This document shows positions 25,669 to 47,758 of a DNA stretch of 63,142 nt, one piece after another. Numbering within the stretch: the first letter of the stretch is position 1; each line of letters opens with the position of its first letter. Under the pieces are notes generated by a model. The model was not told where the DNA came from and did no database searches. It saw only the letters and a list, made by a program, of their open reading frames with translations. The stretch comes from Rhodopirellula sp. SM50 (GTDB lineage: Bacteria > Planctomycetota > Planctomycetia > Pirellulales > Pirellulaceae), in assembly GCF_002289565.1 (NCBI RefSeq), contig NZ_NTFY01000042.1, positions 1 through 63,142 on the forward strand, given 5' to 3'. The translations under genes were made by a program, and so were the position numbers.

Positions 25669-25699
25669 GCACTCAATCCTTTCAGATGGTTCGATAGTA

Positions 25700-27370: not shown

Positions 27371-30300
27371 GTGAAATCAAGAATGAACAAGCGTCGTCGC
27401 CTCACCAAGAAGCACCTCAAACTGGAGTCCCTTGAAGCGCGTCAGTTGCTTGCCGCGAACGTTGTCAACGACTCGTTAACGTTGGCAGCCGACAGCGCGA
27501 TCAACGTCCTGACCAATGACACGTCCGGAAGCGAAGTGCAATCGGTCTCGGCGTTTCAGGTCGACTTTGATCGCGAAACGTATGACCCGGCCGTCAACGC
27601 CACCGATTGGTTCATCCCCGATCGCCCGGGACAACCGGGTGTTCCCCAACGCTCGTTGATCCCGGGCGCCGTGACTTCGATCACCGGCAATAAAGGCGAC
27701 CTGGACCTGCATCGCGACAACGATGCTGACCCGTCCAACGACACCGACCTGGCGCCTCTGACGGCAGGTGAAGGCATCAGTCTGCCCGTGCTTCGCGACA
27801 ACCAACCGGTTGATAGTACACAAACAAACTTGGGCGTTCTCCAATACGTGGTCGACGCCGCGAACACCTGGATCGCGATGGCCGCCGCCCCGGAGAACAA
27901 CGGGGAGAATTCCGTTCCGATCTCCAATACGTTCTTTCCCTATGATGCGGGATGGACCGGGGCAACGATTGATCAAGGTGGGGTAAGGGTCTTCGGTAGC
28001 ACCGACATCAGTGCCACCGGAGACGGTCGCAACTTTGTGGTCGAAGTCGCCGGGGTGACCAATTCGTTCGAGGACGGATTCCTTTTCTCGATCGCCGGCG
28101 ACAACTCCGACAACTACTCCCGGGCTCGGCCGATTGGGGGAAACCAATGGGCAATCCAGGTCCGCGACAATAGCCAGGAGATCGGGTCAACGGACACCGA
28201 TCCGATCAGCGTGCTCTATATCCCCAGGAGTGCTCAAGGTCTGATCGGCGGTGTCGTCGACGGCGGCTTCGACGGCGTCAGCCCGATGCTGCAGTCGTTC
28301 GGAGACTTCAGCGTCTCGCATCAGTCCGACGGATTCTACCGAGTCAGCATTCCCGGGCACGACATCACCTCGGGCGCCCTGATCATCGAAAACTATGACC
28401 TGTCGGTTAGTCAGCCGCGAAACACATATTTCAGCTATGACGATGCCGGTGACGGCAGTGGCGACATCCTCATTCGCCAGTTCGCCTGGAACGGTAACAC
28501 CGAAACGCCGCTGAACTCGGACTTTGTGTTCTTCTTCGTCCCCTTCGAAAACACGCTTAGCCCGACCACCGACCTGACGGTTTCTTCACTCGGCGAGAAC
28601 AACAACGGTTTGTCCGCCAAGGGACTGCCACTGACGCTAAACGCTGACGGCACGGTCAACTACGCCACCTCGGGCGCGATCACTGCACTCGGTGCCGGAG
28701 AAACCGATACCGACACCTTCGTCTATCGGGCGACCGACGGAACGACCGAGAGCGACGACGCCACGGTCACGATCCAGTGGGTCGGGGTCAACGATGCCCC
28801 GGAGGTCCTTTCCACGCCCGCGGACTTGGTGCTCAACGAAGACGCCGCGGCAACCGTCCTGGACCTGACGGCAATCTTCACCGATCCGGATTCGAACGAC
28901 GTTCTAACGTACGGTGTCGATACCGGAGTCAGTGGACTGATCAATGCTGAAATCATCGGCACCAATGTCTCGATTACACCCGCGCTGAACCAGTTCGGCT
29001 ACGTGCAAATCTCGCTGTCGGCGACCGACACCAGCGGCGAAACCGCTTCGGTCACGCTGGACATTTCCGTTATCCCCCAAGACGACGACGTGCAGGCGGT
29101 CGATGACCACGGCACGGTGACGGATAAGTTCACCCCCGCCAGCATCGACGTGCTCGGCAACGACTTCCATCCCGACACCACCGAGTTCTCCGTCTCGGCT
29201 GCCGAAATCTATGGCGATTCGGCGGCGACCACCAATGACGGTTCGGTGTTTACCGTCATCAACACCACCGCGGCCCCCAACGACCTGACGATCCAAAGCG
29301 TCGGCAACTTGGGTGACGTCGCGGTCGGTCGTGGCGGATTCGATCTGTCGCTCGCTGACGGCGTGTTCTTGGGCACCGGCCGTGACAACACCAGCCCGTT
29401 CCCAACGGTCAATACCTATAACGCCTTCGGCAGCTACGGATTTGCGACCGATCGAGGCATCGGCGGCGGCGAACGGAACACCCCATTCAGCGCCGCGTTC
29501 TTTCCCTTCGGCGATCAATGGACCTCCGGACACATCGCCGCCGACGGAACCCTACTCGGGGGCGTCGGCATTTCACAAGCCAATGTGACGCTGCTTCAAC
29601 CGGGACTGTTCGAAATCACCATCCCCGAAGCCAACTTCACCGACGACGGCTTGCTGTTCGCCGTCAGCGGTAGCAACGACGACAACATCGTGTCGGTCTA
29701 TCCGCAAGGCTTCAACAACAAATGGTTGGTCCGTCAGATGGACAGCGATTCGGACGCGACCGGATTCGAAAGTGACGCGATCAGCTTTGTTTACCTCCCC
29801 GGTTCGACGACCGGATTGATCGGCGGACGTGCGGCCTCAGAAGAGGGCCAGTATGCCTTGCGACAGCGATATGGCAACGTCTCGCTCAGCTCCGACACCG
29901 ACCTGGCACCACTGGTCTCGATCGATGGGTACACACCGGCCGATGGCGCACTGATCGCCGTCGCGACGTCCTATGACTTTGCCGACGTCAACGGAGTGTC
30001 GACCCTGATCCCAGCCAATCAAGCCGTGATGGCGACACCCCAAGGCAATGCGTTCCGGATTGACATCCTGCAGTCCCAAACCTTTACCCCGACCGGGAAC
30101 TTCCCCGAGTTCCAATTCATCTTCCTGCCCTATGACAGCCCGCTGGAAAAGATCGATGGGTTGGATTTCAGCATCGACGGGTTTGACAGCGTCAGTGCAC
30201 TGGGAGCCTCCGTCACGCTTGAGGCCGATGGCACGTTCACCTATGACCCATCGGGTGCGGGTGCACCGATCGCCGACCTGGGCAACGGTGAATCGACCAC

Positions 30301-33300
30301 CGATACGTTCACTTACACGATCCGCGACGGCCGCGGCGGAACTTCGACCGCAACCGTTTCATTGACCGTGCAAGGAGAAAACCAAGTTCCGACGGCCAGC
30401 GACGATGTCGTCAACTTGAATGAGTTGAGCGCCCAAGGCGCCTTGATCACCGTGCTGGGTAATGACGTTGACCCCGATGTAGAGTCGCTGCTGGGGACGC
30501 CGACGGGAATCCCATCGGCCAACCTCTCGGTCGATGCATCAAGCGTGTGGTCGGTCTCTCAAACCGGAACGGCGCCGGTTCGCTTGACAGTCGGTGCCGG
30601 AGCAACGGGGACTGTCGAAATCCTGCAAGACGGAAACGCCATCCACCAAGCCGACGGCGTTGTGCTGGCGACGATCCGCGAGAACTTCGATGGCCCCAAC
30701 ACCAACTATCGCTTGGTCCAATCGTTTGACAACGGCAGCGGCACTTCGCTCGCCTTGCAACAGTTCGGCACCGATGCGGCAGCCGATGCGAATGTCTCGG
30801 TCGCGTTCTTCCCGTTTGCCGACAACTGGGTCGGCGGACACGTCAGCAGCGGAGGAACGTTGATCCACGGCAACGGACTGACCGATGCCGAAGTGGTTCG
30901 AACCGATGTCGGCCGCTACGAAGTCACCCTCCCCGGCGTCACCGACGCGGCACTGGACGGTTTCTTGTTCGTCATCGGCAATGAAAACGCCGACAACGTG
31001 ATTCAGACGCGAGCCATTGCGGGATCGGCAATGTACGAGGTTGCCGTCCGCGACAATCAACAGGACTTCGGCGGCGGTGAAGACGGCGGATTCTCGTTCG
31101 TCTTCGTCCCACGCAACGCACAAAACCTGGTCGCCGGAACGATCGATCCGTTTCAATCCGGCCCCAACGCCGTCAGCATGGCGATCGGCGAGTTCAACGT
31201 CGAACGTCTGGACGTCACCGACGGCGGGCATGAGTGGAAAGTCACCATCCCCGGACAGTCTCCGGACACCGGCATGCTGGTACTGACCAACCAAGACAAC
31301 GGCGAAGTCGAAGACAACTTCCTGAGCTACCAGGATGACGGCGCGGGAAGTTTCGTGATCCGCTCGCATGACATGCCGGGATTGGGCCTTCAAGACCAAC
31401 CGTTCACGTTCACCTTCATTCCGTTCGATTCGATCGGCCAACCCGCGGCACGTCCTGTTCCCGGGCTGCTGTCGATCGACAGCGTCGCCCCGACGTCCAG
31501 CCTAGGCGCAACGCTGACGGCCAACGCCGACGGAACGATCCGCTACGATCCCGGCACGGTCCTGGATTCACTCTACGATGGTGACACGGCAACCGACACC
31601 TTCACTTACACCATGACCGATGGTTTCGGTGGAACGTCGACAGCAACCGTCACCGTGAACATCGACGGATTCGGTGCCGCACCTGTCCTGCAATCCTCGT
31701 CCGGTGCGACCTACTACGGCGTGGGCGATGAACCGGTCAGCATCGCCGGGCAGTTCAGCCTGGCTCCCGTCGGCGTACCATTCTTTGACGGCGCCGTCGC
31801 GACGGTGGAACTGACCAGCGGCCAAATCGCATCGGATGTGTTGTCCATTCGCGACGAAGGCAACGGGGCAGGGCAGGTCGGTGTTTCGGGAACCGACGTC
31901 AGCTATGACGGTGCCGTGGTGGCAACGTTCACCGCCGGCTCCGGAACATCCCCGCTGACGCTGACGTTCAACGCGGCAGCGACCGAGCTTGCCGTTGAAC
32001 GAATCCTGCAATCGGTGACCTACTTCACTTCGGATCCCGTCGTGATCGGTGGCGGCCGCGTGGCAACGTTCTCGTTTGTCGACGGCAACGGCCACGCAAG
32101 TGACTCCGCCACCAAACCACTGCAGCTCGGATTGGTCTATCGACGGGAACTGCAACAGGGCGTCAACAATGGCTATGGCACCTATCAGGGAACCTCGGAC
32201 GCCCAGATCCGTGAAAGTGATCCAGATTCCGTGATCGCGCCGCCTGCCGACTTGCTGGTCGATTTCGACAGCGCCGGAAACGCGTCGCAAGTGCTGCTGC
32301 GTTACGCCGACCTGTTCGGTGACGGGCCGGGCCAAATCCCGCTGGGTGCTGTCATCACGTCGGCAAACCTGGTCGTTGAAACCAATCCCAACACCTCCAA
32401 CGCGCCGGGCGATGGCGGAACGCTGCACCGCATGTCGATCGACTGGGACGATGCCACCGCCACCTGGAATGCATACGGCAACGGGATCCAACCGGGTACG
32501 GGAGAGGCCGCCAGCGTCTTTGAATCTGCAATCGGGACAGCCAGTGGAGCCGGCAGCACGGGAACGGGCGTGCTGAGCTTCAGCGTGCTGCCGGACATCC
32601 AAGCCTGGGCCGATGGCGAAACGAACAACGGTTGGCTGATTCAGGGTTGGGAAAACCGCACCGACGGCTGGTTCTTCAGCAGTGCCGAAGACGAAACGCC
32701 GACGGCCCGCCCGAAGCTGGAAATCGAATGGGTTCCCGCCGGTGCGAATGTCGTCAGCTTCCGTGAAGGCGTCAACGGCTATTCGTCGACCGTGGACACC
32801 GAAATCGATAGCGCCACCGCGGATGACGATTTGTCGGCCGCCGAAACGCTGTTTATCGATTCACCGACCAGCCGAGCTCTCGTCCGATTCGATGACATCA
32901 TCGGAGACCTGGCCGGACAAATCCCCGCGGGTTCGAAGATCGTCACCGCACGGCTTCGCACCGCTTCGACCACCAGCAATGCTCAAGGCGACGGGGCACG
33001 GTTCTTCCCCATGCTGACGGCTTGGAACGAGACCGACACGTTCAACAGCCTGATCGACGGCGTCAGTGTCGACGGCGTGGAAGCGGCCAGTGACTACACC
33101 GCGTCCGCCGGAAACCCGAGCCGCAACCCGAACGTTCAAGGCGGGTTCCACGATTGGGATGTGACCAGCGACGTCCAAGCCTGGGTCAACGGGAACCTGA
33201 CCAACTACGGATGGCTGCTCGAGCCTTGGGAAAGCGGCACCGACGGCTGGGGTTTCCAAAGCTCCGAAGCGGCCAATGAACTCGAACGACCGCGATTGGA

Positions 33301-35719
33301 AGTCGTGTTCACAACCGCCATCGATCCGGAAATCAACATCACCGGTGACAACGGCCAAGCGGTCGCTGCCGGAACGACCAACGTCTCGCCCTTGGCCGGA
33401 ACGGACTTTGGTAGCGCCGACGTAACCGGAGGAACGCTCACCAAGACCTTCACCATCGAAAACACCGGCGCCGCGGCGCTGAATATCTCGGCTGCCGAAA
33501 TCATCGGAGCCGAAGCCGGTGCGTTCACCTTTACCAACCAACCGGTCGCGACCGTCATCCCCGGCGGATCGTTCTCCTTCGATGTGGTCTTCGATCCGTC
33601 CAAGCTAGGACTGCACGACGCCACCGTGGTGATCACCAGTGACGACGCGGACGAAGCAGTGTATCGATTCGCCATCCAGGGCAACGGCGTCGGATTCCCG
33701 GCGCTGTCGGCGACGCCGGACGGGTCGACATCCTTCACACCGATCGGTGGTATTTCGAGCGGTCTTTCAGGCGCTGAAATCTCCGCCTTCGATTCCGGCA
33801 GCGATCGCCTGTTCGTGACTTCCGATGCCGGGCTGCAAGTCATCGACCTGGCTGACCCTGCCAACCCGGTCTTGTTGTCTACGATCCAGCCGACCGCGGA
33901 GGGTGCCAGCGACAATGCGATCACCAGCGTTGCGGTCAACCAGGCAGGCGTCGTCGCGGTAGCCGTCCCCGGATCCGATCCCCAAGCTCCCGGAAGCGTG
34001 TTCTTCTACAACGCGGCCGACGCCTCGTTCTTGGGCAGCGTGATTGTCGGCGCCTTGCCGGACCAACTGACGTTCACCCCCGACGGTATCCGACTGTTGG
34101 TCGCCAATGAAGGCGAACCTTCATCGGATGGAACGACTGATCCGGTCGGCTCGGTCAGCATCGTTGACCTCTCCACCGGAGTTGCCACCGCGACCGTGCA
34201 AACCGCCGGCTTCGAGTCCTTTGACGGCAGCGAGCAAGCACTCCGCGATGCGGGTGTCAAACTGAGCCCCGGCAAGAGTGTCTCCGAAGATGTCGAACCG
34301 GAATACATCGCCGTTTCGCCTGACGGCACCACCGCGTTTGTGACCCTCCAGGAGAACAACGCGTTGGCCGAAGTCAATCTCGCCACCGCGACGGTGATCG
34401 CGATTCATCCGCTGGGTTACAAAGACCACAACGTGGCAAATGCGGCCATCGATCCGACCAACGATTCTCCCGATGCGTTAACGCTGCAAAGCATCCCGGT
34501 ACGCGGCTTGTTCCAACCCGATGCGATCGCCAGTTACGAAGTCGGCGGCGTGACCTACTACGTCACCGCCAACGAAGGCGATGCACGCGACGCGGAAGAA
34601 ACGGACGTCCAAAGCGTCACGCTGGACCCGACGATGTTCCCCAACGCCGCGGCATTGCAAGCCGCAACGTCGGCCGGTGAACTGGAACTCAGTGGCATCG
34701 TCGGTGATCCCGACGGCGACGGCGACTTCGACGCGCTCTATTCCTTCGGCGCCCGATCGTTCTCAATCTGGAGCAGGGCAGGGGAGTTGGTTTTTGACAG
34801 CGGCGATGTGCTCGCACGAGCCAGCGATCTGCTCGGGCTGTACCCCGATGGACGAAGCGACAACAAGGGAACCGAACCCGAAGGCATCACGATCGGGCAG
34901 ATCGACGGACGCACTTACGCATTTGTCGGTCTCGAACGCGCCAACGCCATCATGGTGTTTGACGTTACCGACCCGACCAACGTTTCGCTCTCACAAGTGC
35001 TCAACGACAGCGCAGACGTCAGCCCCGAAGGACTGACCTTCATCGCTTCCGGCGACAGCCCCAACGGCTCGCCGTTGTTGGTCGTCAGCAATGAAGTCAG
35101 CAACACGTTGCGTGTCTACTCGATCGGGTCAACGTCGGCGACTCCCCAAGTCGAGTCGGTCGTGATCAATGATGGATCGGCGTCGCGATCGCAAGTCACA
35201 TCCGTGACCGTGACGTTCGACACCGAAGTGGACCATGTGGCGCTGCAATCAGCGTTCACGCTGACCAACATCGACAGCTCGACCCAAGTCACGGGCCTGG
35301 ACATCGCCGCAAGTAACAGCGGAGGGAAAACGATTGCCGTTGTCTCCTTCGCTGCCGGTGCAAGTGTGGTGACGCGGAACGGTTCCGGCCTACAGGGCAA
35401 CTCGCTCGCCGACGGCAACTACCGACTCGACATTGCGGCAAGCCACGTGCAAGCGATCGTCGGCACAACCACGATGGCTGTCGACTATGCGTTCGGCGGA
35501 CAAAACGCAGCGGGTACACCCAACGACGATTTCTTCCGCCTGCTCGGTGACGCCAACGGTGACGGGTTCCGCAACGGCATCGATTTGAACTCGATCATTC
35601 CGTCGCTGTTCAATCCCAACGAATACCGATTCGACCTCGACACCAACGGCGATGGATCGATCAACGGGATCGACTTGAACGACCTGATCCCGACCATCTT
35701 CGGCGCGGCACGCCAGTAG
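27371..35719 (+). CDS. giant multi-domain extracellular protein (2782 aa) with dockerin
   Basis: The N-terminus (KKHLKLESLEARQLLAAN) is the planctomycete extracellular motif. Then come three copies (about 187-400, 712-920, 1150-1370) of an unrecognised ~210-residue module whose halves end in VLYIPRS/FVFVPRN-type and FFFVPFE/FTFIPFD-type strands, each followed by VCBS/cadherin-like repeats (LTLNADGTVNYATSG, DTFTYTIRDGRGGTSTATV). Next are two DNRLRE-type domains (about 1590-1790, 1793-1980; QAWADGETNNGWLI), an ASPM/SPD-2/Hydin-like domain (about 1983-2115), a propeller-like choice-of-anchor I region (about 2122-2587; GAEISAFDSGSDRLFVTSD), an Ig-like segment, and a C-terminal dockerin pair with two calcium loops (DANGDGFRNGIDLN, DTNGDGSINGIDLN). 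Start GTG 27371; ATG 27383 possible. Probably a cell-surface or matrix protein; ligand unknown. Confidence 0.9.
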   Translation: MKSRMNKRRRLTKKHLKLESLEARQLLAANVVNDSLTLAADSAINVLTNDTSGSEVQSVSAFQVDFDRETYDPAVNATDWFIPDRPGQPGVPQRSLIPGAVTSITGNKGDLDLHRDNDADPSNDTDLAPLTAGEGISLPVLRDNQPVDSTQTNLGVLQYVVDAANTWIAMAAAPENNGENSVPISNTFFPYDAGWTGATIDQGGVRVFGSTDISATGDGRNFVVEVAGVTNSFEDGFLFSIAGDNSDNYSRARPIGGNQWAIQVRDNSQEIGSTDTDPISVLYIPRSAQGLIGGVVDGGFDGVSPMLQSFGDFSVSHQSDGFYRVSIPGHDITSGALIIENYDLSVSQPRNTYFSYDDAGDGSGDILIRQFAWNGNTETPLNSDFVFFFVPFENTLSPTTDLTVSSLGENNNGLSAKGLPLTLNADGTVNYATSGAITALGAGETDTDTFVYRATDGTTESDDATVTIQWVGVNDAPEVLSTPADLVLNEDAAATVLDLTAIFTDPDSNDVLTYGVDTGVSGLINAEIIGTNVSITPALNQFGYVQISLSATDTSGETASVTLDISVIPQDDDVQAVDDHGTVTDKFTPASIDVLGNDFHPDTTEFSVSAAEIYGDSAATTNDGSVFTVINTTAAPNDLTIQSVGNLGDVAVGRGGFDLSLADGVFLGTGRDNTSPFPTVNTYNAFGSYGFATDRGIGGGERNTPFSAAFFPFGDQWTSGHIAADGTLLGGVGISQANVTLLQPGLFEITIPEANFTDDGLLFAVSGSNDDNIVSVYPQGFNNKWLVRQMDSDSDATGFESDAISFVYLPGSTTGLIGGRAASEEGQYALRQRYGNVSLSSDTDLAPLVSIDGYTPADGALIAVATSYDFADVNGVSTLIPANQAVMATPQGNAFRIDILQSQTFTPTGNFPEFQFIFLPYDSPLEKIDGLDFSIDGFDSVSALGASVTLEADGTFTYDPSGAGAPIADLGNGESTTDTFTYTIRDGRGGTSTATVSLTVQGENQVPTASDDVVNLNELSAQGALITVLGNDVDPDVESLLGTPTGIPSANLSVDASSVWSVSQTGTAPVRLTVGAGATGTVEILQDGNAIHQADGVVLATIRENFDGPNTNYRLVQSFDNGSGTSLALQQFGTDAAADANVSVAFFPFADNWVGGHVSSGGTLIHGNGLTDAEVVRTDVGRYEVTLPGVTDAALDGFLFVIGNENADNVIQTRAIAGSAMYEVAVRDNQQDFGGGEDGGFSFVFVPRNAQNLVAGTIDPFQSGPNAVSMAIGEFNVERLDVTDGGHEWKVTIPGQSPDTGMLVLTNQDNGEVEDNFLSYQDDGAGSFVIRSHDMPGLGLQDQPFTFTFIPFDSIGQPAARPVPGLLSIDSVAPTSSLGATLTANADGTIRYDPGTVLDSLYDGDTATDTFTYTMTDGFGGTSTATVTVNIDGFGAAPVLQSSSGATYYGVGDEPVSIAGQFSLAPVGVPFFDGAVATVELTSGQIASDVLSIRDEGNGAGQVGVSGTDVSYDGAVVATFTAGSGTSPLTLTFNAAATELAVERILQSVTYFTSDPVVIGGGRVATFSFVDGNGHASDSATKPLQLGLVYRRELQQGVNNGYGTYQGTSDAQIRESDPDSVIAPPADLLVDFDSAGNASQVLLRYADLFGDGPGQIPLGAVITSANLVVETNPNTSNAPGDGGTLHRMSIDWDDATATWNAYGNGIQPGTGEAASVFESAIGTASGAGSTGTGVLSFSVLPDIQAWADGETNNGWLIQGWENRTDGWFFSSAEDETPTARPKLEIEWVPAGANVVSFREGVNGYSSTVDTEIDSATADDDLSAAETLFIDSPTSRALVRFDDIIGDLAGQIPAGSKIVTARLRTASTTSNAQGDGARFFPMLTAWNETDTFNSLIDGVSVDGVEAASDYTASAGNPSRNPNVQGGFHDWDVTSDVQAWVNGNLTNYGWLLEPWESGTDGWGFQSSEAANELERPRLEVVFTTAIDPEINITGDNGQAVAAGTTNVSPLAGTDFGSADVTGGTLTKTFTIENTGAAALNISAAEIIGAEAGAFTFTNQPVATVIPGGSFSFDVVFDPSKLGLHDATVVITSDDADEAVYRFAIQGNGVGFPALSATPDGSTSFTPIGGISSGLSGAEISAFDSGSDRLFVTSDAGLQVIDLADPANPVLLSTIQPTAEGASDNAITSVAVNQAGVVAVAVPGSDPQAPGSVFFYNAADASFLGSVIVGALPDQLTFTPDGIRLLVANEGEPSSDGTTDPVGSVSIVDLSTGVATATVQTAGFESFDGSEQALRDAGVKLSPGKSVSEDVEPEYIAVSPDGTTAFVTLQENNALAEVNLATATVIAIHPLGYKDHNVANAAIDPTNDSPDALTLQSIPVRGLFQPDAIASYEVGGVTYYVTANEGDARDAEETDVQSVTLDPTMFPNAAALQAATSAGELELSGIVGDPDGDGDFDALYSFGARSFSIWSRAGELVFDSGDVLARASDLLGLYPDGRSDNKGTEPEGITIGQIDGRTYAFVGLERANAIMVFDVTDPTNVSLSQVLNDSADVSPEGLTFIASGDSPNGSPLLVVSNEVSNTLRVYSIGSTSATPQVESVVINDGSASRSQVTSVTVTFDTEVDHVALQSAFTLTNIDSSTQVTGLDIAASNSGGKTIAVVSFAAGASVVTRNGSGLQGNSLADGNYRLDIAASHVQAIVGTTTMAVDYAFGGQNAAGTPNDDFFRLLGDANGDGFRNGIDLNSIIPSLFNPNEYRFDLDTNGDGSINGIDLNDLIPTIFGAARQ

Positions 35720-36814: not shown

Positions 36815-36859
36815 GCGAGGCTGAAAGCACAAACCAGGGCACAAAACACCGCTTCTGCA

Positions 36860-36887
36860 ACGTCCGATAATCACTCTTATGTTGTAT
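36860..36887 (+). other. dif: dif-like chromosome-dimer resolution site
   Basis: A 28-bp site with 11-6-11 layout: XerC-type arm ACGTCCGATAA, centre TCACTC, XerD-type arm TTATGTTGTAT. The inner ATAA...TTAT is palindromic. The XerD arm agrees with the E. coli arm TTATGTTAAAT at 9 of 11 positions, and CCGATAA matches the XerC-side consensus known from actinobacterial dif sites. It lies in a spacer between convergent genes and in the zone where GGGCAGGG octamers reverse strand. A Xer recombinase gene is not in the window. The assignment rests on sequence likeness plus motif polarity. Confidence 0.75.
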
Positions 36888-36926
36888 TGAGACTGCGAAA
36901 AACGCCATGTTTGAGCGATTTCGACG

Positions 36927-36989: not shown

Positions 36990-37661
36990 TCACGGCCGCC
37001 AGCCGGCGGGGCGTGCGATCGGGCTGCTCTGCTCGGGTGCAAACACCGGCTGCAACCGGTCCCTCATCTCATCGACCAAGACGCCTTCGATGCCTTCAGG
37101 AGCGTCGATCAGCCGGCCGGCCAACCCGGCATCGGGCTGCATTTGGGAACCCTCGAACTCTGCGTCGAATCGCTCCAAGTACGGACGCAAAAACTGATGG
37201 ATCTCCGGCGGGATCACCGACTCGCTGCGGTCGAGATGCCGGGCGATGAATCGGCCGCTTTTGCTAGCAACGATCGCTTGACGAATCCCATCCCCCATCA
37301 GCGTGACGGCGAACAGCGTGATCAGCGTGCAATACAGCCCCCCCTTGAGCAGCCCGAACAGCGCTCCGATCTGACGATCAAATTCCTTCAGCTTCATTCG
37401 GTCGATCGTCCGGCGGACCATGTTGAAAGCAACCCAAACGACCAGCGACGTCCCCACGAACAGAATCAACATCGCCAAAAAGCGATTCCAGGGAGGTTCT
37501 GCGATGATCGAATGGCTGAGCGGCTCGCGGAATCGATACGCCACGAAATAACTGACCACGATCGAAGCGATGGAAGCCAACTGCCATGCAAAGCCCTTGA
37601 CCGCGCCAAAAATGGCGGCAGCAGCGAGCACGATCAGCATCAAGATGTCGTAGGTCTCCAC
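36990..37661 (-). CDS. CvpA-family membrane protein
   Basis: 223 residues from the GTG at 37661 (a TTG at 37679 is also open; no ATG is suitable). Four hydrophobic segments in the first ~140 residues (YDILMLIVLAAAAIFGAVKG, LASIASIVVSYFVAYRF, FLAMLILFVGTSLVVWVAF, GLLKGGLYCTLITLFAVTLM) and the motif FDRQIGALFGLLKG fit the CvpA/colicin V production family, inner-membrane proteins of poorly defined role. It is convergent with the PEP-CTERM gene across the dif-like spacer. Confidence 0.82.
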   Translation of the reverse strand: METYDILMLIVLAAAAIFGAVKGFAWQLASIASIVVSYFVAYRFREPLSHSIIAEPPWNRFLAMLILFVGTSLVVWVAFNMVRRTIDRMKLKEFDRQIGALFGLLKGGLYCTLITLFAVTLMGDGIRQAIVASKSGRFIARHLDRSESVIPPEIHQFLRPYLERFDAEFEGSQMQPDAGLAGRLIDAPEGIEGVLVDEMRDRLQPVFAPEQSSPIARPAGWRP

Positions 37662-37730
37662 AAGCCGTTGTCCTCGCAACCCAGTCCCTGAACTTCAATC
37701 TCTCCAAACACCTGCACTACAGCAACCCGA

Positions 37731-38018: not shown

Positions 38019-38197
38019 ATTGCGGCGATCCGGCAGGACCGAGGGCAGGGCGTCGCCGCGGTGACTTATACGCGATCGACGCGCCGCAAGCGAAGACCAA
38101 TCGCAATCCAGTCTTGGCAGCGGACCATCGAAAGCGGTATGTACCGAGTTTCCAATTTGCTCGACCGCCCTCCCCTGCCCCTCACCCATTTGCTAGC

Positions 38198-38980
38198 GTG
38201 GCAGATTTCAAAACCCACATCAGCGCCAGCACGCTTGTCGGGATCGCCTACGGATACTGGGGCGTGACCTCGCAATCGATGACGCTGGAAAACGGGATCT
38301 TGGCCGGCGGTCTCTGTTCGGTCAGCGGCATGCTGCCGGATCTCGATAGCGACGGCGGCATTCCGCTGCGTGAGATCAGCATGTTCACTGCGGCGGTCGC
38401 CCCGATGATGATGCTCAATCGCTTTCGCGACTACGACCTGTCCCACGAGTCGATGGCTTTGGCGGCGATGCTGATCTATGTCGTGATCCGTTTCGGCGCC
38501 TTTGAGTTCTTTAAACGCTTCACCGTCCACCGTGGCATGTGGCACAGTTTGCCTGCCGCGGGGGTTTCGGGATTGATCGCCTACCTGGCGATGCCGACCA
38601 CCAGCGACGCCGAGCGGGCCTACAAAGCGGTGGCGGTCGTCGTCGGCTTTTTGGTCCACTTGATCTTGGACGAAATCTGGGCCGTCGAAGTCGGCGTGGC
38701 TCGGCTGCGCACGAAGAAGTCCTTTGGTACCGCACTCAAGTTCCTTGGCAACGACGCGATCGCCAACGTGTTTGTGTACGCGCTGCTGTTCGGACTGTGC
38801 TACACCGCGTGGAGTGACAACAAGATCGCGGCGCGGCTGCGTGAACGCGCCAAGTACGATCTCACGCAACCCGGCTGGCAATACACTCCGACGTCTCCGC
38901 CGTCCGACTGGACCGTGCCACAGTGGCAAGCCCCCGACTTCGGCTTCAACGCCTCGCTTCCTTCCGCGGAGCGGAAGTAG
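38198..38980 (+). CDS. membrane-bound metal-dependent hydrolase (YdjM/DUF457-like)
   Basis: 260 residues from the GTG at 38198; the frame is open further upstream through repeat DNA. The family's putative metal ligands are present: FKTHISAST near the N-terminus, GMLPDLDSD, FTVHRGMWHSL and HLILDEIWAVEV. Five or so hydrophobic segments lie between them. Related E. coli YdjM is an inner-membrane protein of the LexA regulon; no LexA box could be confirmed here. The substrate is unknown. Confidence 0.78.
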   Translation: MADFKTHISASTLVGIAYGYWGVTSQSMTLENGILAGGLCSVSGMLPDLDSDGGIPLREISMFTAAVAPMMMLNRFRDYDLSHESMALAAMLIYVVIRFGAFEFFKRFTVHRGMWHSLPAAGVSGLIAYLAMPTTSDAERAYKAVAVVVGFLVHLILDEIWAVEVGVARLRTKKSFGTALKFLGNDAIANVFVYALLFGLCYTAWSDNKIAARLRERAKYDLTQPGWQYTPTSPPSDWTVPQWQAPDFGFNASLPSAERK

Positions 38981-39026
38981 AGGGGGAGACAAGGAGAGAA
39001 GGGGAGTCGAGAGTACCCAGTTCCTC

Positions 39027-39152
39027 GAAAACTTGAAACTTGAAACTTGAAACTTGAAACTTGAAACTTGAAACTTGAAACTTGAAACTTGAAACTTGAA
39101 ACTTGAAACTTGAAACTTGAAACTTGAAACTTGAAACTTGAAACTTGAAACT
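39027..39152 (+). repeat. heptamer tandem array (GAAACTT)n
   Basis: About 17.5 near-perfect copies of GAAACTT between two convergent genes; the first unit has one extra A. It ends six bases before the dtd stop codon. This is the third 7-bp array in the window. Confidence 0.95.
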
Positions 39153-39157
39153 CCCCT

Positions 39158-39595
39158 TCACCGTTCCAACAACATCGTGACCGGACCATCGTTGACCAGC
39201 GAGACTTTCATGTCTGCGGCGAAGACTCCGGTTTCGACACCAATCCCCTGCCCTTTTAGTCTCTCGACATACAGCTCGTACAACCGCTTGGCGATCGCCG
39301 GATCGGCGGCGTCGGTAAACGCGGGACGACGGCCCTTGCGACAATCGCCGTAAAGCGTGAATTGGCTGACGGCTAAGACACTACCACCGATATCGATCAC
39401 CGACCGATTCATTTTCCCGGCGTCGTCTTCGAAGACGCGCAACACGGCCGTCTTCTCTGCCATCCAGCTGACGACCGACTCATCATCCGCGTGGCCGATT
39501 CCGACCAAGGCCAAAAAGCCCGCTCCGATTTGGCCGACCACCTCTCCTTCGACCGAAACACTCGCTTGACTGACCCGCTGCAACACCACTTTCAA
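39158..39595 (-). CDS. dtd: D-aminoacyl-tRNA deacylase
   Basis: 145 residues. It hydrolyses D-amino acids (and glycine from mischarged tRNA-Ala) off tRNA. Family motifs are [15 protein letters not shown] at the start, [14 protein letters not shown] (the SQFTL motif) and [13 protein letters not shown] (the GPVT motif) at the C-terminus. Full length. Its stop codon nearly touches the GAAACTT array. Confidence 0.96.
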
Positions 39596-39687
39596 CTTAT
39601 TGTCCTCTAGAATGAATCGCTCGCGCTCTCGGGCGCGCTGTCAATCATCATCACGTACTCTACGTCTCGCAAGTCGTTTGACCATTC

Positions 39688-40593
39688 ATGTCATACCTGT
39701 TTACCTGCCCGCACTGCCACGCGCAAACTCAGGTCGAGGATCAGTACAGCGGAAAGTCCGGCGAATGTTTTTCGTGCGGCGCGCCGATCCAGCTGCCCGA
39801 CTTCGCCGCTTCGACGACTGCCCCGTCCCGCCCCGCGAACAAACGCCCTCTCGGCGTGCTGATTTCCGCGGGCGTTGTCCTGACGATGCTGGTTTGCATC
39901 GCGTTTGCCGCCATCCGCTTTGGCGGCGACAGCGTTTCGCGACTTGCCGAGATCCGCATCCAAAACTCGTCGATCAAGAATTTGGAAAGCATCGCCGCGG
40001 CACTCAATGCTTACGCGGCCGACTACGGAACGTATCCACCGGCAACCCTACGCGACAGCGCTGGAATCCCGATGCATTCGTGGCGGGTGCTGATCCTGCC
40101 TTACCTCGGGGAACAGGGAACCTACGACCAGTTTGATCTCAGCAAACCATGGGACCACGAGCTGAACCTGCAAGCGAGCTACTCGATGCCCTCGGTGTAT
40201 GTGCACCCCAACGACACCAACCGAGCCGGGACGCAGTCGGGATACTATTTGATCACAGGCCCGGGAACGCTTTTCCCTCCCTCGGGTCCCTTGTCTCCCG
40301 ACAAGATCCAAGACGATGCGTCGCAGACCATCCTGGTGATCGCCGGCGCCCCACCGGTCAACCGCGCGATCGGGGGCTGGGCCGAACCGGTGGACCTTGA
40401 TTACACGGCGATGAAAGGCGTGATCAACGGAACGGTCGGGATCGAACCGGGCGGCAGAATGGCCAGCGGCGTGACGATGGCGACGGTCGATGGCCGCGGC
40501 CACTTTCTCCGCAATGATTTGTCGTCGCGAACCTTTGCCGCACTGGTCACCCCCAACGGCAACGAACCGCTGCCCGATGACACCCTTGATTGA
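39688..40593 (+). CDS. zinc-ribbon membrane protein with DUF1559-like C-terminal domain
   Basis: 301 residues. An N-terminal zinc ribbon (CPHCHAQ ... CFSCGAPI, residues 7-30) is followed by a Pro/Ala linker, one transmembrane helix (about 55-75, LGVLISAGVVLTMLVCIAFAAI) and a body like that of DUF1559 proteins (IKNLESIAAALNAYAADYGTYPPA, SWRVLILPYLGEQ, and a late GVTMATVDGRGHFL). The prepilin motif is absent, so it should stay in the inner membrane instead of being assembled as a pilin. No operon partner. Confidence 0.75.
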   Translation: MSYLFTCPHCHAQTQVEDQYSGKSGECFSCGAPIQLPDFAASTTAPSRPANKRPLGVLISAGVVLTMLVCIAFAAIRFGGDSVSRLAEIRIQNSSIKNLESIAAALNAYAADYGTYPPATLRDSAGIPMHSWRVLILPYLGEQGTYDQFDLSKPWDHELNLQASYSMPSVYVHPNDTNRAGTQSGYYLITGPGTLFPPSGPLSPDKIQDDASQTILVIAGAPPVNRAIGGWAEPVDLDYTAMKGVINGTVGIEPGGRMASGVTMATVDGRGHFLRNDLSSRTFAALVTPNGNEPLPDDTLD

Positions 40594-40615
40594 ATCGACC
40601 GTTTGCGCGAAAGGA

Positions 40616-40791
40616 GTTAGCGGAACGGCGCGAGCCGTCGGGTTGCAGCTCAAAAGCACGTCGCAAGACCGGAGGGCTCGCGCCCTGCCGCTAACAATCA
40701 ACCGACAGTGTTAGCGGAACGGCGCGAGCCGTCCGGTGGCAGCTCAAAAGCACGTCGAAAGACCGGAGGGCTCGCGCCCTGCCGCTAACAA
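40616..40791. repeat. two tandem copies of a 94-bp palindromic spacer element
   Basis: Units start at 40616 and 40710. Each pairs GTTAGCGGAACGGCGCGAGC on the left with ACCGGAGGGCTCGCGCCCTG on the right across CAGCTCAAAAGCACGTCG. It lies between the 3' ends of two convergent genes, where it could act as a bidirectional terminator. Confidence 0.75.
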
Positions 40792-40805
40792 ACGACACCC
40801 CATTG

Positions 40806-42245
40806 CTACGCCAAGAATCCGAGCGGATAGGTCGCCTGTCCTTTGTTGACGAAGTTGCGGATGTTGGGCAGGATGCTTTCCATTTGATGGTCATTGTCCA
40901 GCCCGTACCACATCGCCAATTCGCACCACATTTCATCGACCGACGTCGTCGGCAACAGACGGCCGCGGCCGAGATCCAGCGCGTTGCCGGGCGCCAACGA
41001 ATCCGGATACGTGCCGCACAATTGGTTGCCTTTCACCGGCCCGCCCATGATGATCTGGTTGCCGCCCCAGGCGTGATCGCTGCCGCGTCCGTTGCTGTTG
41101 AGCGTCCGGGCGAAGTCGCTGGCGGTGAAGGTGACGACATCGTTCTGGACGCCCAACTCCGTCATCGCATCATAAAAATCCTTCAGCGCTTCGCTGACAC
41201 GGGTCAAGTTAGTTTGCTGGTTATTGATCAGCTCGTCGTGGTTGTCCCAACCGCCGATGTTGACGAAGAAGATTTGTCGCGAGTGCCCGATCGCATCACG
41301 TGCGCCGATCGTTTTGGCGACCATCTGCAACTGGCTGGACAGACTGTTGTTGGTGGTACGAAAGGTCGTATTCAAGTTGACCGCATTGGCGGCCTCGTTG
41401 AACGCGATCGCCGAGTCGAGCGCGTTGCGATTGGCATTGGCGAACGTCTGCTCCACCAAGTTCCCGTAGGATCGCGACAGAACGTCATCGGTCAACTGCG
41501 TGTAGATCTTGGCCTGCGTCCACGTTTGGCCATACCATCCCACTTCGCTTGCGCCGGAGTTGGTCACGATGTACGGAATCACCGATCCACCGGTCTGCAT
41601 CATGTTGACCGAGTTGAGTGCGATGTTCATCGAGATGTTGTCGTTCGAATTGACTTGACTGGTGATCAGGTCAGCCATTCGTCCGGCCCAACCGGTCACC
41701 TGCGAACGGGTTTGCGGGACCGAGGTCATCCAGTGACGTTGCAGGTCGGCGTGGGAAAACAACCCCAGCGGCAGATTGGATCGTGCCTGGTACTGCGCCA
41801 TCGTCGTCGGCTCGACCAAGCTGCCGATGTTGCACAGAAACGTCAGATCACCGGCCTGGTAAATCTGCTGCACGTCGCCCATGCCCGGATGGATGCCGAA
41901 GGTTCGCCCGGTGGTATTATCGGTGATCGGATGCAATTCATTTTCGGGCAACCCCAGCGCGCCGTTGCCCGGCTGATAAACGCCTCCACGTGCGGCCAAA
42001 TAATCAGCCCGCTCGGCGGCATCCAGCGGCGTCAGCATGTTGAACGAATCGTTGCCGCCGTACATGAACACACAGACGAGTGCCTTGTAGCCGCTCAAGT
42101 CATTCGCGGCGACGGCAGCGTTGGTTGCCGACAAACTGAACAACGTCGACAGCAACGACGTGTTCGTCAGCGCCGCACAACCGCCGGCCAGTTTCAGTAC
42201 ATCTCGACGAAGCGGCTCGCGGTGGATGCGTTGCGTGGGTCTCAT
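40806..42245 (-). CDS. DUF1501 family protein, Tat-exported
   Basis: 479 residues. A twin-arginine signal (EPLRRDVLKLAGGCAAL) leads a DUF1501 body with KALVCVFMYGGNDSFNMLTP, FGIHPGMGDVQQIYQAG, SHADLQRHWMTS, GGWDNHDELI and GSDHAWGGNQIIMGG. These are alkaline-phosphatase-superfamily-like secreted proteins very common in planctomycetes; substrate not established. It starts 64 bases behind the DUF1800 gene, the usual order for this pair. Confidence 0.92.
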   Translation of the reverse strand: MRPTQRIHREPLRRDVLKLAGGCAALTNTSLLSTLFSLSATNAAVAANDLSGYKALVCVFMYGGNDSFNMLTPLDAAERADYLAARGGVYQPGNGALGLPENELHPITDNTTGRTFGIHPGMGDVQQIYQAGDLTFLCNIGSLVEPTTMAQYQARSNLPLGLFSHADLQRHWMTSVPQTRSQVTGWAGRMADLITSQVNSNDNISMNIALNSVNMMQTGGSVIPYIVTNSGASEVGWYGQTWTQAKIYTQLTDDVLSRSYGNLVEQTFANANRNALDSAIAFNEAANAVNLNTTFRTTNNSLSSQLQMVAKTIGARDAIGHSRQIFFVNIGGWDNHDELINNQQTNLTRVSEALKDFYDAMTELGVQNDVVTFTASDFARTLNSNGRGSDHAWGGNQIIMGGPVKGNQLCGTYPDSLAPGNALDLGRGRLLPTTSVDEMWCELAMWYGLDNDHQMESILPNIRNFVNKGQATYPLGFLA

Positions 42246-42309
42246 GACAATCGGTCCGGTACGGGAAAAGGGAGAAAGCAGAACGTGCGGCGTCGGATTC
42301 AGTGACGCG

Positions 42310-44184
42310 CTACTGCGTGATGGCGGCGAACGGCGACAACACGGTCGCCATCAGTGCCGCGTTGACCCGAAACTCCTCCATCCTTGGACGCCAGGTCGGG
42401 TTGGTCTTCATCCACGCCGTCTCCGCCGTCGTGACCTCGACCACCCTCTCCTTATAGTCCTGGGGCATCGAACCATAACAAAACACTAAATCAAACCGAT
42501 CCATCAGTTCGTGCATGTCTGTATCCTCGGTACACAGCAGCTCTTCCTCCTCCAAATGGAAAACCATGTCGCTGTTGTGAGAGACCCCGCTGGTGTTGTT
42601 GGACCAGCGCTGCTGTGACATCTGATTAGAGATGTCCCAGATGTATCGCCCGGCCAATCGATTCGAGGTCACCGGGGTTTTGACTTGAAACTCCGGGGCG
42701 GCCAAGAATCCGTTGGGGATTCGACGCGACGGTTTGTAACCGAGCAAGCTGCCGGGCGGCTGGTAATCGGGCAGATAAAAATTAAACACCGTCGGCGACA
42801 AGTACGGCTCTTGAGTCCAGTTGTAATTCTGTGACATCAACATCGCGCGGCCGCTGTGATGGTTGCTGGTCGCGTTGACGCCGCGTAGCAATCGCGTGTA
42901 TCGAATCACAGGTTCGGCAAGTGTCGAGTAATCCGTCCCCCGGGCAATGACTTCCACGCGGTAGGGCCGACTGCGACCGAGCAACCGCTGACCTCTCCAC
43001 GCTTCCGGATCCAGCAGCACCGCCTTGACGACCGCGGCCAAGTCACCTTTGACGCCCTGCCCGTTGTCGTTGAACTTCCGAGCGACACGTCGAATGTAAC
43101 CTCGGGAAGGATTGCTCTTGACCAACCGCTGGATCAATCGTCGCGAAAGGAACGGAGCCACGTTGTCATGGGCGAGCAGGTTGTCCAGCGCCGCGGCGAT
43201 ATCGGCGTCTCCGTCCACACTCGTTTCACTACCGATCACTTCCCCGCCGAGCAGCGTTTTCAAGCCGGGCTCATGCTCAAAATCGAACATCTCCATCGGC
43301 TCTTCAAATTCATTCCCCCACCAAAACCGCCCCGTCCCCGTCGCATTGGGATGCGGCTTGAACGCCAACCCCGTAAAGACCTTGGCGAACTCCTTGATGG
43401 TTTCGTTGTCGTAGGTCGGGATCAGATTGCCGGATGCGTCCGTCTTCAGCCGGCCGTCTAAATGCAGTTCGTACAGTCCGATCGTGAACAACTGCATGAT
43501 CTCTCGGGCATAGTTCTCGTCCGGAAATCGATTGGTAGCCTCATCCGTCTTTCGGTTTCGCATGTGACTCAAGTAGACACCCATGACCGGGTGATAGGTC
43601 ACGTCCTCTAATAATTCGCGATAGTTGCCAAAGGCATGCTTGACCATCAAATCGTAGTAGTGTGTCGGACCAAGCCACCGCCCTTCCCCGCTGTAATGCC
43701 CCGGGTTTTGATCGTTGAACCCGGCGCCGTCCTGGCTGGTCACCAGAATCTGGATCAGCGCCCACGCCACACGTTGACGAAGCTGATCTTCACCGGCCAA
43801 CGCACAATGCCACCAAGCGTGGTAGCGGTAACGCTGGATGTAGGCGTTGCCTTGAGTTGAATTCAGCCCATCGCGGGCGATCATGTCGACCGCCAAAGGA
43901 CGGTGGTAACCCGCCGGCACGGCCATCTGCTGATCGATCCACTCTTCGCACGCACGCCGCGTCCCGATCTGGGCCATCCGCTCGGCCAACGCTTCGATCT
44001 GCTGAAGGTTGGGACCAAAGGTCGCGCGAGAGAGAAACTGAGCGGCGCGAATCTGCCGCTTCGCCACCGCAACATCACGACGCGAATCGACCTCAAACGT
44101 TCCCGCATCGACGGCGGGTACATTCACGCCGACTGCAAACACGCAAATCAGCAACCGGATCCAAGCCCCTGTCCGCAACGGCAT
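42310..44184 (-). CDS. DUF1800 family secreted protein
   Basis: 624 residues from the ATG at 44184, which gives a signal peptide (MPLRTGAWIRLLICVFAVGVNVPAVDA). The longer frame to 44385 only adds basic, non-conserved residues. DUF1800 marks are AAQFLSRATFGPN, RRACEEWIDQQMAVP, RQRVAWALIQILV, NYRELLEDVTYHPVMGVYLS, FPDENYAREIMQLFTIGLYEL, and VAPFLSRRLIQRLVKSNPSRGYI. Function unknown; it nearly always pairs with DUF1501, which follows in the same direction. Confidence 0.92.
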   Translation of the reverse strand: MPLRTGAWIRLLICVFAVGVNVPAVDAGTFEVDSRRDVAVAKRQIRAAQFLSRATFGPNLQQIEALAERMAQIGTRRACEEWIDQQMAVPAGYHRPLAVDMIARDGLNSTQGNAYIQRYRYHAWWHCALAGEDQLRQRVAWALIQILVTSQDGAGFNDQNPGHYSGEGRWLGPTHYYDLMVKHAFGNYRELLEDVTYHPVMGVYLSHMRNRKTDEATNRFPDENYAREIMQLFTIGLYELHLDGRLKTDASGNLIPTYDNETIKEFAKVFTGLAFKPHPNATGTGRFWWGNEFEEPMEMFDFEHEPGLKTLLGGEVIGSETSVDGDADIAAALDNLLAHDNVAPFLSRRLIQRLVKSNPSRGYIRRVARKFNDNGQGVKGDLAAVVKAVLLDPEAWRGQRLLGRSRPYRVEVIARGTDYSTLAEPVIRYTRLLRGVNATSNHHSGRAMLMSQNYNWTQEPYLSPTVFNFYLPDYQPPGSLLGYKPSRRIPNGFLAAPEFQVKTPVTSNRLAGRYIWDISNQMSQQRWSNNTSGVSHNSDMVFHLEEEELLCTEDTDMHELMDRFDLVFCYGSMPQDYKERVVEVTTAETAWMKTNPTWRPRMEEFRVNAALMATVLSPFAAITQ

Positions 44185-44848
44185 CGCTCTCACCTTGAAA
44201 AGAACCCGGCTCAGCGATCCGGCCAACCCGTATCGGGTGAGCCATCTCTCGCGAACCAATTGGAATAGACCCCTTCGCGTTCTTGAACGCTTGGGCGGCG
44301 CGAACGGCGACAATCCCTGTCGAATTTTCCCAACAATCGCAACATTCGCGAGAAGCAAGCTATGCCACACAACCGCGCAGGTCAATTAGAAGACTCGGAT
44401 TGGGGGGGCGAAGAAAGGGGCGACCAGACCCCCACCCCGACAAAGAAGAAGACACCTTTCCTTTGAAGCGATCCGTTCCTCAACGAAGTTGCAGTCACCC
44501 TCCCTCAGAGCGTCGATTCTTTTGCCGCAGGACAGGGCAACCGATTTAGATTCTCTCCCTCTGGGAGAGACGGCGTTTGCGCAGCAAGCAAACGCCAGAG
44601 AGGGCCGGCGCTGCGAAAGTCATGGCGACGTCCGCTACGATCAACTCCACCACTTTTACAATCGCCGTCCCCTGGGAGAGTCGAGCACAGCGAGGAGAGG
44701 GCTTGCGCTGTTGCCTGGGGTCGCCCATCAAGAGGGAAGTGAACGCCGCGCTTCACCGTTGGACCTCCCCTCGCTTCGCTCGACCCTCCTACCAGGAGGG
44801 TGGCTTCAATAACTGCGCGACGTCAAAAAGGTAGAGCAACCGCGGCGA
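44185..44848. repeat. spacer with a dispersed ~155-bp repeat, copy 1
   Basis: A 664-base gap between two minus-strand genes. From about 44536 to 44695 it holds TTTAGATTCTCTCCCTCTGG, GGCGTTTGCGCAGCAAGCAA and ACGCCAGAGAGGGCC, repeated near-identically at 59047-59185. At 44766-44807 an arm pair CCCCTCGCTTCGCTCGACCC / CAGGAGGGTGG of the family seen at 23943 and 24405 follows. Confidence 0.7.
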
Positions 44849-46069
44849 CTAATACTTCCGTGGCGTCACGGTGCCTTGGACTCGGCTGGGCAAGCCCTGA
44901 ATCCTCAAGAAGCCTTCGGCGTCATCCTGGTTGTACGACCCGCCGCCTTCCATCGTCGCGATCTCGGCGTCGTACAAACTGTTCGGACTGCTGCGCGAGT
45001 CCACCGAGATGTTGCCCTTGTACAGCTTCAGCGTGACTTCACCAGTCACGATCGTTTGGGCTTGCTTGATGAACGACATCAGGGCGTCCATCTTGGGCGT
45101 GTACCAGAACCCGTAATACACCATCTCGGCGACTTCCGGTGCGAGTCGATCACGAAGGTGCATCAGGTCGCGGTCCATCGTCAACTGTTCGACATACATC
45201 AACGCGTCGTACAGGATCGTCATGCCGGGCGACTCGTAGACACCGCGGCTTTTCATTCCGACGAAACGGTTCTCGATCATGTCGATTCGCCCGATGCCGT
45301 TTCGACCGCCGATGTCATTGAGCCGTTCGACCATTTCCAACGCATTGACGGCCTGGCCGTTGAGCGTCGTGGGGACGCCCGATTCGAACCCGATCGTCAC
45401 CGACTCGCTTTCGTCGGGAGCTTCCTGGGGACTGACCCCCATCCCGAAATCGACCAGTTCGACGCCGTTGACGTCCAACTCTTCCAGCTCGCCCGCCTCG
45501 TAGCTGATGTGCAACACGTTTTCGTCGCTGCTGTACGGCTTGGCGGTCGACGCTTTGACCGGAATGTTTTTCTCGGCGCAGTAGGCGATCAATTCGGTTC
45601 GGCCGGGGAACGCGTCACGGAACTCCTTGATGCGCCACGGCGCGATGATCTCGACGGTGGGATCGAGTGCTTCGGCGGCCAGCTGAAAACGACACTGATC
45701 GTTGCCCTTGCCGGTCGCACCGTGGGCGTACGCGACCGCCCCCACTTCGCGAGCCACTTGCAGACAAACCTTGCTGATCAACGGCCGCGCGATCGAGGTT
45801 CCCAGCAGATAGATCTGTTCGTACTTGGCCTGCCAGGCGAGCACGGGAAAGGCAAAGTCGCGGCACAATTCTTCGCGGACGTCGATCAATTTCGCCGACG
45901 CCGCACCGCAATCCCGCGCCTTTTGCATGATCGCGTCGCGGTCCTCACAGGGTTGCCCCAAATCGACATACACCGCATGGACTTCGTAACCTTGGTCCTG
46001 CAACCATCCCAGGATGACGGAGGTATCCAGACCGCCGGAGTACGCCAATACGCATTTTTTGGTCGACAT
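44849..46069 (-). CDS. argG: argininosuccinate synthase
   Basis: 406 residues from the ATG at 46069, giving MSTKKCVLAYSGGLDTSVIL with the ATP-pyrophosphatase P-loop. It ligates citrulline and aspartate with ATP in arginine synthesis. Other motifs are VYVDLGQP, GTSIARPLISK, AYAHGATGKGNDQCRF and KASTAKPYSSDENV. The reading frame stays open another 1.1 kb upstream, but that stretch is antisense to larB and is not part of the protein. Single gene. Confidence 0.96.
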   Translation of the reverse strand: MSTKKCVLAYSGGLDTSVILGWLQDQGYEVHAVYVDLGQPCEDRDAIMQKARDCGAASAKLIDVREELCRDFAFPVLAWQAKYEQIYLLGTSIARPLISKVCLQVAREVGAVAYAHGATGKGNDQCRFQLAAEALDPTVEIIAPWRIKEFRDAFPGRTELIAYCAEKNIPVKASTAKPYSSDENVLHISYEAGELEELDVNGVELVDFGMGVSPQEAPDESESVTIGFESGVPTTLNGQAVNALEMVERLNDIGGRNGIGRIDMIENRFVGMKSRGVYESPGMTILYDALMYVEQLTMDRDLMHLRDRLAPEVAEMVYYGFWYTPKMDALMSFIKQAQTIVTGEVTLKLYKGNISVDSRSSPNSLYDAEIATMEGGGSYNQDDAEGFLRIQGLPSRVQGTVTPRKY

Positions 46070-46207
46070 GAACAAATGCCTTTGTTGATGCTGTCTAGTG
46101 AAAGGTTGGGGGTGCCACCGAACGCGTCGGAGCTGGCCCGCCGGAATTGGGGGACACATTCTACGCTCGCGACGTCGCCTTCGCCTGGGCGACCCTGATT
46201 GGATAAC

Positions 46208-47197: not shown

Positions 47198-47285
47198 CGG
47201 AACGCTGTGAAGCATTGATTGCCTGTGTTTGACGAGGTGTTAGCGGCAGGGCGCGAGCCCTCCGGTCTCCACTCCTCGACTCCTC

Positions 47286-47672: not shown

Positions 47673-47758
47673 TGCGTGGCCTTGTATGATGGTCTAAATC
47701 CCGATCGGTTCACCGACCCGGCAATTCTTCACCCTTCCCTTGGCCGCCCTCTCCCCAC

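Follow-up and report, generated by a model that had tools for sequence, protein, structure and literature searches.

The window (the whole stretch of DNA that was analysed, 63,142 nucleotides) carries the 28-mer ACGTCCGATAA-TCACTC-TTATGTTGTAT on the forward strand at exactly positions 36860-36887. Two 11-bp arms flank 6 bp, and the XerD arm is of the TTATGTT type, which confirms the 11-6-11 layout that the initial annotation had described for a candidate dif site. The convergent genes it had reported were found as well: the 28-mer lies in the gap between an open reading frame at 35740-36501 (+) and a CvpA-type gene at 36990-37679 (-). Three neighbors of the 28-mer are annotated in the window, and they are of the CvpA, YdjM and tRNA-deacylase types. 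The features at the site are as follows.

36842..36922, + strand: conserved non-coding block around the putative dif; the extent is that of the longest short match, in genome G007
36860..36870, + strand: XerC-type arm ACGTCCGATAA, identical in all 13 genus members examined, window included
36871..36876, + strand: central region TCACTC, unchanged across the 13 genomes of the genus, varying between families
36877..36887, + strand: XerD-type arm TTATGTTGTAT, of which TTATGTT is the part kept more widely
36990..37679, - strand: CvpA-type gene (PF02674, profile match), neighbor of the putative dif

An array of TACTCAGTAC/TACTCGGTAC units (window 36658-36814) abuts the site on its left, and like arrays occur elsewhere in the genome. 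On its right, the site is adjoined by the inverted repeat GTGGGATAGGCTTCCAGCCTGTC...GACAGGCTTCCAGCCTATCCCAC (window 36930-36983), a REP-like element with numerous copies in the genomes G000, G001 and G003.

Using the dif-type pattern SNNATAAN6TTATGTT, which was taken from general knowledge, 36860-36887 was the only perfect match in the window. At up to two mismatches the same pattern gave 2 matches against 1.14 expected, which is not notable alone and is uninformative, so the weight falls on the perfect match and on conservation. The site is a single copy, as the initial annotation had proposed: a search of the 9.8-Mb genome with its 22 arm positions, allowing up to three mismatches, returned this place alone (reversed-pattern control, 0). 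Its expectation of conservation in relatives also held, because all 28 bases are identical in 12 of the 12 congeners examined and the flanks have diverged (mean column identity over 13 rows is 0.56 at -60 to -1, 1.0 in the site, 0.75 at +1 to +40 and 0.43 at +41 to +80). Some 20 bases past the XerD arm, within window 36888-36927, a CCCCGTRTTTGAGC-like stretch is partly conserved in the genus and is possibly an accessory site. In two genomes of other families (G014 and G015), ACGTCCGATAA-N6-TTATGTTCGTT with three arm mismatches was found beside DNA matching the cvpA-type gene of the window. Loose dif patterns do arise by chance, but the conservation of the site across genera, its uniqueness and the switch of polar motifs described below leave practically no room for a chance resemblance to dif.

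The spread of the site was followed with the query ACGTCCGATAA-N6-TTATGTT at up to two mismatches, with the reversed pattern as control. Of 392 genomes sampled from the phylum, 239 matched (control, about 31 of 392), as did all 47 single-contig genomes of Planctomycetia (control, 7 of 47), 45 of which have a copy at no more than one mismatch. One place per genome was found at up to two mismatches in 39 of the 47, and two places in the other eight (G424, G430, G436, G530, G564, G043, G088 and G318). The pairs in G430 (C1:1332188-1332284) and G424 (C1:3698450-3698533) are inverted, with the two dif-type sites some 60-80 bases from each other, and inverted pairs of this kind were also seen at the loci L172 and L204. 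An exact scan of public genomes returned at least 119 stretches with the site, including several contigs from one assembly. Of the 80 titles listed, 58 were read as planctomycete; the remainder point to other phyla or say only 'bacterium', which is what a site akin to dif in general would give. A CvpA homolog was present within the same stretch (up to 8 kb) at 40 of the 119 loci, among the matches listed.

Multiple dif-type sites per genome were observed in the genus g180 (22 in G305, 6 in G349 and 5 in G279), and perhaps reflect mobile elements that exploit Xer. Such elements use dif-like sites, and with a few multi-copy genomes in the phylum (22 copies in G305) it may be asked whether the 28-mer is an attachment site of this kind rather than dif. 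That is highly improbable, since the 28-mer is a single copy at which polar motifs converge, the cvpA-type neighbor is kept across families, the three annotated neighbors in the window are of the types named above, and the flanks are in part conserved and non-mobile.

The genes for a dif system are present. Two Xer genes scoring above 320 bits were found in each of the 10 genomes searched. In the genome of the window, L091 passes the XerD cut-off of the NCBIfam equivalog models and L099 passes that of XerC, with L099 also above the XerD cut-off, less well. Both align to the solved XerD structure 1a0p and possess the arginine, lysine, HxxR, histidine and tyrosine residues that make up the motif of Xer recombinases. 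FtsK with a gamma domain is encoded in 14 of the 14 genomes searched, and one helix of this domain reads GYGRAAKLID in G011 versus GYNRAARIIE in the solved chain 2ius (which we take to be the E. coli protein), a difference at four positions. Division of planctomycetes is independent of FtsZ, and FtsK and Xer are present in bacteria that divide without FtsZ.

Polar motifs around the site were counted for all octamers, with no prior choice of motif, within 100 kb on each side in four congeners (G011, G001, G002 and G004) and in the window. GGGCAGGG scored highest for polarity toward the site (152 copies toward and 17 away, z = 10.4); when no switch at the site was assumed, the top z among all octamers was 6.0. 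GGGCAGGG is the C form of GGGNAGGG, the KOPS of E. coli. The inversion of polar octamers that the initial annotation had noticed is borne out in the window, where all 13 copies of GGGCAGGG left of the site are on the forward strand and 10 of the 11 to its right are on the reverse strand.

9744..34783, + strand: 13 KOPS-like GGGCAGGG left of the site, pointing to the putative dif (starts at 9744, 10757, 10762, 14310, 14315, 14724, 17523, 20436, 20441, 25377, 25566, 31866 and 34776)
38043..38050, + strand: the single GGGCAGGG exception, right of the putative dif and 1.2 kb away
38173..57965, - strand: 10 KOPS-like GGGCAGGG right of the site, pointing to the putative dif (starts at 38173, 39246, 43055, 46272, 46277, 47778, 48193, 48198, 52999 and 57958)

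One polarity switch about 1.2 kb from the site, between 38043 and 38173, fits all 24 copies. The best switch relative to the site was at +1.2 to +1.3 kb in the window and in G001, at -9.8 to +1.7 kb in G011 and at -3.0 to +3.2 kb in G004; in G002, -5.0 to +1.2 kb and +2.5 to +64.7 kb were equally good. GGGCAGGG is enriched near the site (24 copies in the 63-kb window, 0-2 in most of 80 20-kb samples taken elsewhere in four congeners). The E. coli octamer GGGNAGGG was found 286 times toward the site and 46 times away in 119 loci from many organisms (among the matches listed); of these loci, 83 lean toward the site, 4 away and 32 are tied, 26 of them with no copy at all. In genome-wide 20-kb samples, the ratio of GGGCAGGG copies toward and away from the site was 18:2 in G011, 12:4 in G001, 9:6 in G012 and 6:14 in G002, and that of GGGNAGGG was 29:12 in G011, 37:20 in G001 and 14:29 in G002. 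Seven of the 14 away-pointing GGGCAGGG copies of G002 sit in one sample; convergence in this genome is backed solely by the data within 100 kb on each side, with which its genome-wide samples disagree. Octamers of the GGGNAGGG kind that are polar toward the site and enriched nearby make the GGGCAGGG motifs candidate KOPS, to be read by FtsK.

Based on its uniqueness, its conservation in relatives, the set of Xer and FtsK genes and the convergence of oppositely oriented KOPS (with the reservation for G002), the 28-mer is very probably dif, the site at which fused chromosomes would be resolved at division.

The GC skew does not behave as the initial annotation had expected for a dif site. No switch was detected in the window (-0.054 left of the site and -0.061 right of it), and the mean skew has the same sign on both sides of the site, in the window as well as in the 100-kb flanks of four congeners, with variation in single 20-kb bins. 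The KOPS are not explained by skew either, because the left-hand motifs of the window are G-rich despite a negative local skew. G011 is a complete congener (7,107,266 bp) whose contig begins at dnaA, and its skew was sampled evenly over 400 kb of 7.1 Mb. Ten 20-kb samples at 1.5-46.5% of the chromosome are positive and ten at 51.5-96.5% are negative, so the skew switches at the dnaA gene and again between 46.5 and 51.5%; the site lies 19.0% of the chromosome from dnaA, not opposite the origin as the initial annotation had supposed. All 20 samples fit the dnaA axis, versus 8 of 20 for the dif axis. For all 59 GCAGGGCAGG copies of this genome, 51 fit convergence at dif and divergence opposite (0 of 5000 label shuffles reach 51), versus 25 for the skew axis and 34 for that axis reversed. 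A single chromosome thus carries two polarities, each with its own axis. Genome-wide samples of skew are clean in G011 alone among the four congeners sampled and patchy in G001, G002 and G012; the site lies 11-17% from dnaA in these three genomes and in G004. Placement of dif at the terminus as judged by GC skew was rejected in view of the skew samples of the window and of the congeners.

The initial annotation had held that equally good copies elsewhere, or a skew switch far from the site, would speak against dif. No such copies were found in the site's own genome, and the distant switch was found in G011. We take the separation of dif and skew switch as a finding and not as a refutation of dif, because the second argument presupposed a dif placed at the skew switch. 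This position, opposite oriC, is not the one observed in G011 and G462, and it is customary rather than defining for dif, since a displaced E. coli dif is described as staying active if KOPS still converge (PMC3025954).

The distance between dif and dnaA was obtained for 31 of the 47 single-contig genomes, those in which the place of dnaA was listed and clear (14 of 15 in the family f1, 14 of 21 in f11 and 3 of 5 in f116); most genome sizes were rounded to 0.1 Mb, and the dnaA taken in G326 and G541 is less certain. Six genomes of f6, f7 and f9 stand outside this set, as does G572, where the choice between two dnaA copies is ambiguous. The distance is 8-36% in all 14 usable genomes of the family of the window, 19 to 49.5% in f11 (14 usable of 21, one above 45%) and 48-50% in f116 (3 usable of 5), which indicates that the coincidence of dif and terminus known from most bacteria is kept in part of the class and lost in others. 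In G430, a genome of f116 outside the set, the site is at about 20% of the contig. In G416, the dif/dnaA axis accounts for 12 of 16 motifs, although there the motif is outnumbered by its reversed control (16 versus 103). Local skew at the 47 loci with more than 2 kb on both sides (among the matches listed) showed a terminus-like sign change in 16, the reverse in 5 and none in 26, so the phylum is mixed.

Distances that vary so widely across the class might be attributed to a recent large inversion or a misassembly that displaced dif, as in P. aeruginosa PAO1-UW, and such strains do exist (PMC6199493). We regard this as very unlikely here, since a single inversion would flip skew and KOPS alike, whereas in G011 the skew and the fitted KOPS axis have two switch points each that are differently placed, and dif is displaced in every one of the 14 usable family genomes.

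Two genes with a DnaA C-terminal domain were found in most genomes of Planctomycetia searched, and complete genomes, where listed, usually have one short DnaA gene near the start of the contig and one longer elsewhere. The second, longer DnaA was tried as a mark of KOPS divergence and rejected: it fits in G011 (4.736 Mb, within 4.69-5.11 Mb) and not in G462 (2.268 Mb, near dif).

The part of the argument that concerns parS comes from other genera of the family and not from the genus of the window. In G462 (6,496,182 bp), four parS sites with 0-1 mismatch lie at 5.2696-5.2710 Mb together with genes for ParA and ParB, and the antipode of dif, at 5.2712 Mb, is 0.2 kb away from the parS without a mismatch; parS is thus at 50.00% from dif, and the parABS locus is 1.2 Mb from dnaA. 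The 33 KOPS copies of this genome switch sign only twice, at 2.009-2.227 Mb (dif is at 2.023 Mb) and at 5.409-5.438 Mb. They fit the dif-parS axis in 31 of 33 cases (33 of 33 with a fitted divergence point) and the dnaA axis in 20 of 33, versus skew signs, in ten 6-kb samples, that agree with the dnaA axis in 9 of 10 and with the dif/parS axis in 5 of 10. Similarly, three parS sites lie beside parA-parB in G358 (6,428,985 bp), about 10.5 kb from the antipode of dif, at 49.84% from dif and 19.7% from dnaA. In these two other genera, parABS, with parA-parB adjoining clustered parS, is placed opposite dif. In G534, where dif is 8.2% from dnaA, a cluster of three parS (1, 1 and 2 mismatches) lies 45.6% from dif, 324 kb off the antipode. 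A parS cluster at 0-1 mismatch was not found in the other eight of the 11 family genomes searched, nor in G416. In five complete genomes of the genus of the window, no parS was found at up to one mismatch, and single parS at two mismatches were no commoner than the reversed control; in 80 kb around the dif antipode of G011, neither parAB nor parS (up to four mismatches) was found. At the locus L255 (707-2207), ParA/ParB homologs were seen a few kb from a dif-type site, with 0 polar motifs toward it and 2 away.

These placements bear on whether the 28-mer is an ordinary dif at the true terminus, with the origin near parS and the KOPS divergence, and with the place of dnaA and the skew being misleading. 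parS normally adjoins oriC, parABS is opposite dif in G462 and G358 with the KOPS divergence nearby in G462, and the skew is patchy in three of the four congeners sampled genome-wide. Against this, the skew of G011 switches at dnaA and at 46.5-51.5% in 20 of 20 samples, with only 8 of 20 on the dif axis, and that of G462 prefers the dnaA axis by 9 of 10 to 5 of 10. Published skew switches track dif even with unequal arms, as described in PMC6199493, so the skew should have followed a dif at the terminus. A dif at the true terminus is therefore unlikely. With good confidence, we favor that the 28-mer is a dif at the convergence of KOPS, on a parS-dif axis of segregation, and is not anchored at the terminus of replication. 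dnaA together with the skew would then mark the origin, and the segregation axis (parS-KOPS-dif) appears offset from the axis of replication, by about 17-34% of the chromosome in G011 and G462, the two genomes in which both axes are readable.

A mechanism can be proposed for this arrangement. By analogy with E. coli, from whose established system the steps of FtsK and XerD are taken over and here put together from the parts found, FtsK at the division site would load on GGGCAGGG, read the motifs via its gamma domain, pump trapped DNA toward dif from both sides and switch on XerD, and XerCD would act on the 28-mer. ParB would gather at parS, and the chromosome arms would be drawn from there, with dif as the opposite end of the axis. 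If parS is away from the origin, separation of the DNA would finish at the point opposite parS, and dif and the KOPS polarity may settle there; arm pairing driven by ParB and SMC is the presumed reason that dif stays opposite parS. More generally, it appears reasonably likely that planctomycetes of the Pirellulaceae type, and variably Planctomycetia, have independent axes of replication and segregation, with selection keeping dif opposite parS instead of where replication ends.

Well-studied bacteria have parS, oriC and the skew minimum at one place and dif, the terminus and the KOPS switch at another, which makes it impossible to tell which process positions which. Here the axes are seemingly pulled apart, and it becomes testable whether dif follows the arm pairing of parS and SMC or the termination of replication, and whether KOPS polarity results from selection or only follows from strand bias. 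If the chromosomes do have two axes, KOPS polarity would be the product of FtsK selection alone, without leading-strand bias. Furthermore, the site supplies a dif consensus for Planctomycetota. The statement of the initial annotation that dif is little documented in Planctomycetes agrees with the 2011 survey of Kono, whose results as given in PMC3025954 hold no dif prediction in its single Planctomycetes genome. The open-access literature searched yielded nothing on dif in Planctomycetes or Planctomycetota, on parS in Planctomycetes or Rhodopirellula, or on GC skew and dnaA of Rhodopirellula.

Compared with the published picture, the planctomycete pattern departs from the close pairing of dif and skew switch in the survey of PMC6199493, in which the switch is described as 13 kb from dif on average, with chromosomes of alternating skew domains excluded. 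The outliers between dif and the skew shift-point that Kono describes, in Proteobacteria and Firmicutes, amount to no more than 3% of the genome (PMC3025954). A displaced parS is not expected a priori either: in P. aeruginosa the segregation force is reported to act at parS, and good segregation to need parS close to oriC (PMC5098823). In Caulobacter, SMC loaded at parS is reported to align the flanking arms, less so from an ectopic parS (PMC5583512).

The likeness to the XerCD/dif-FtsK/KOPS system of E. coli includes the 11-6-11 site, the TTATGTT arm, XerC and XerD, FtsK-gamma and GGGNAGGG converging at dif; the planctomycete site differs in lying off the GC-skew switch, in its XerC arm ACGTCCGATAA and in the four positions of the gamma helix. 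The unequal-arm strain PAO1-UW of P. aeruginosa, produced by inversion, is similar in that segregation can end at dif, away from the end of replication, but its skew switch is reported to lie no more than 15 kb from dif and its KOPS to mirror the skew (PMC6199493), whereas in G011 and G462 the skew and the KOPS/dif system follow separate axes, and all 14 usable genomes of the family have their dif far from the dnaA antipode. The archaeal XerA/dif system (Cortez 2010) is described as also having a single dif, not exactly 180 degrees from oriC, with short polar motifs toward it, but it works without FtsK and with one recombinase, and its dif is still in the termination region (PMC2958812). Finally, the ParA, ParB and TGTTTCACGTGAAACA clusters of G462 and G358 resemble parABS partition elsewhere, except that the locus lies about 19-20% of the chromosome from dnaA, opposite dif.
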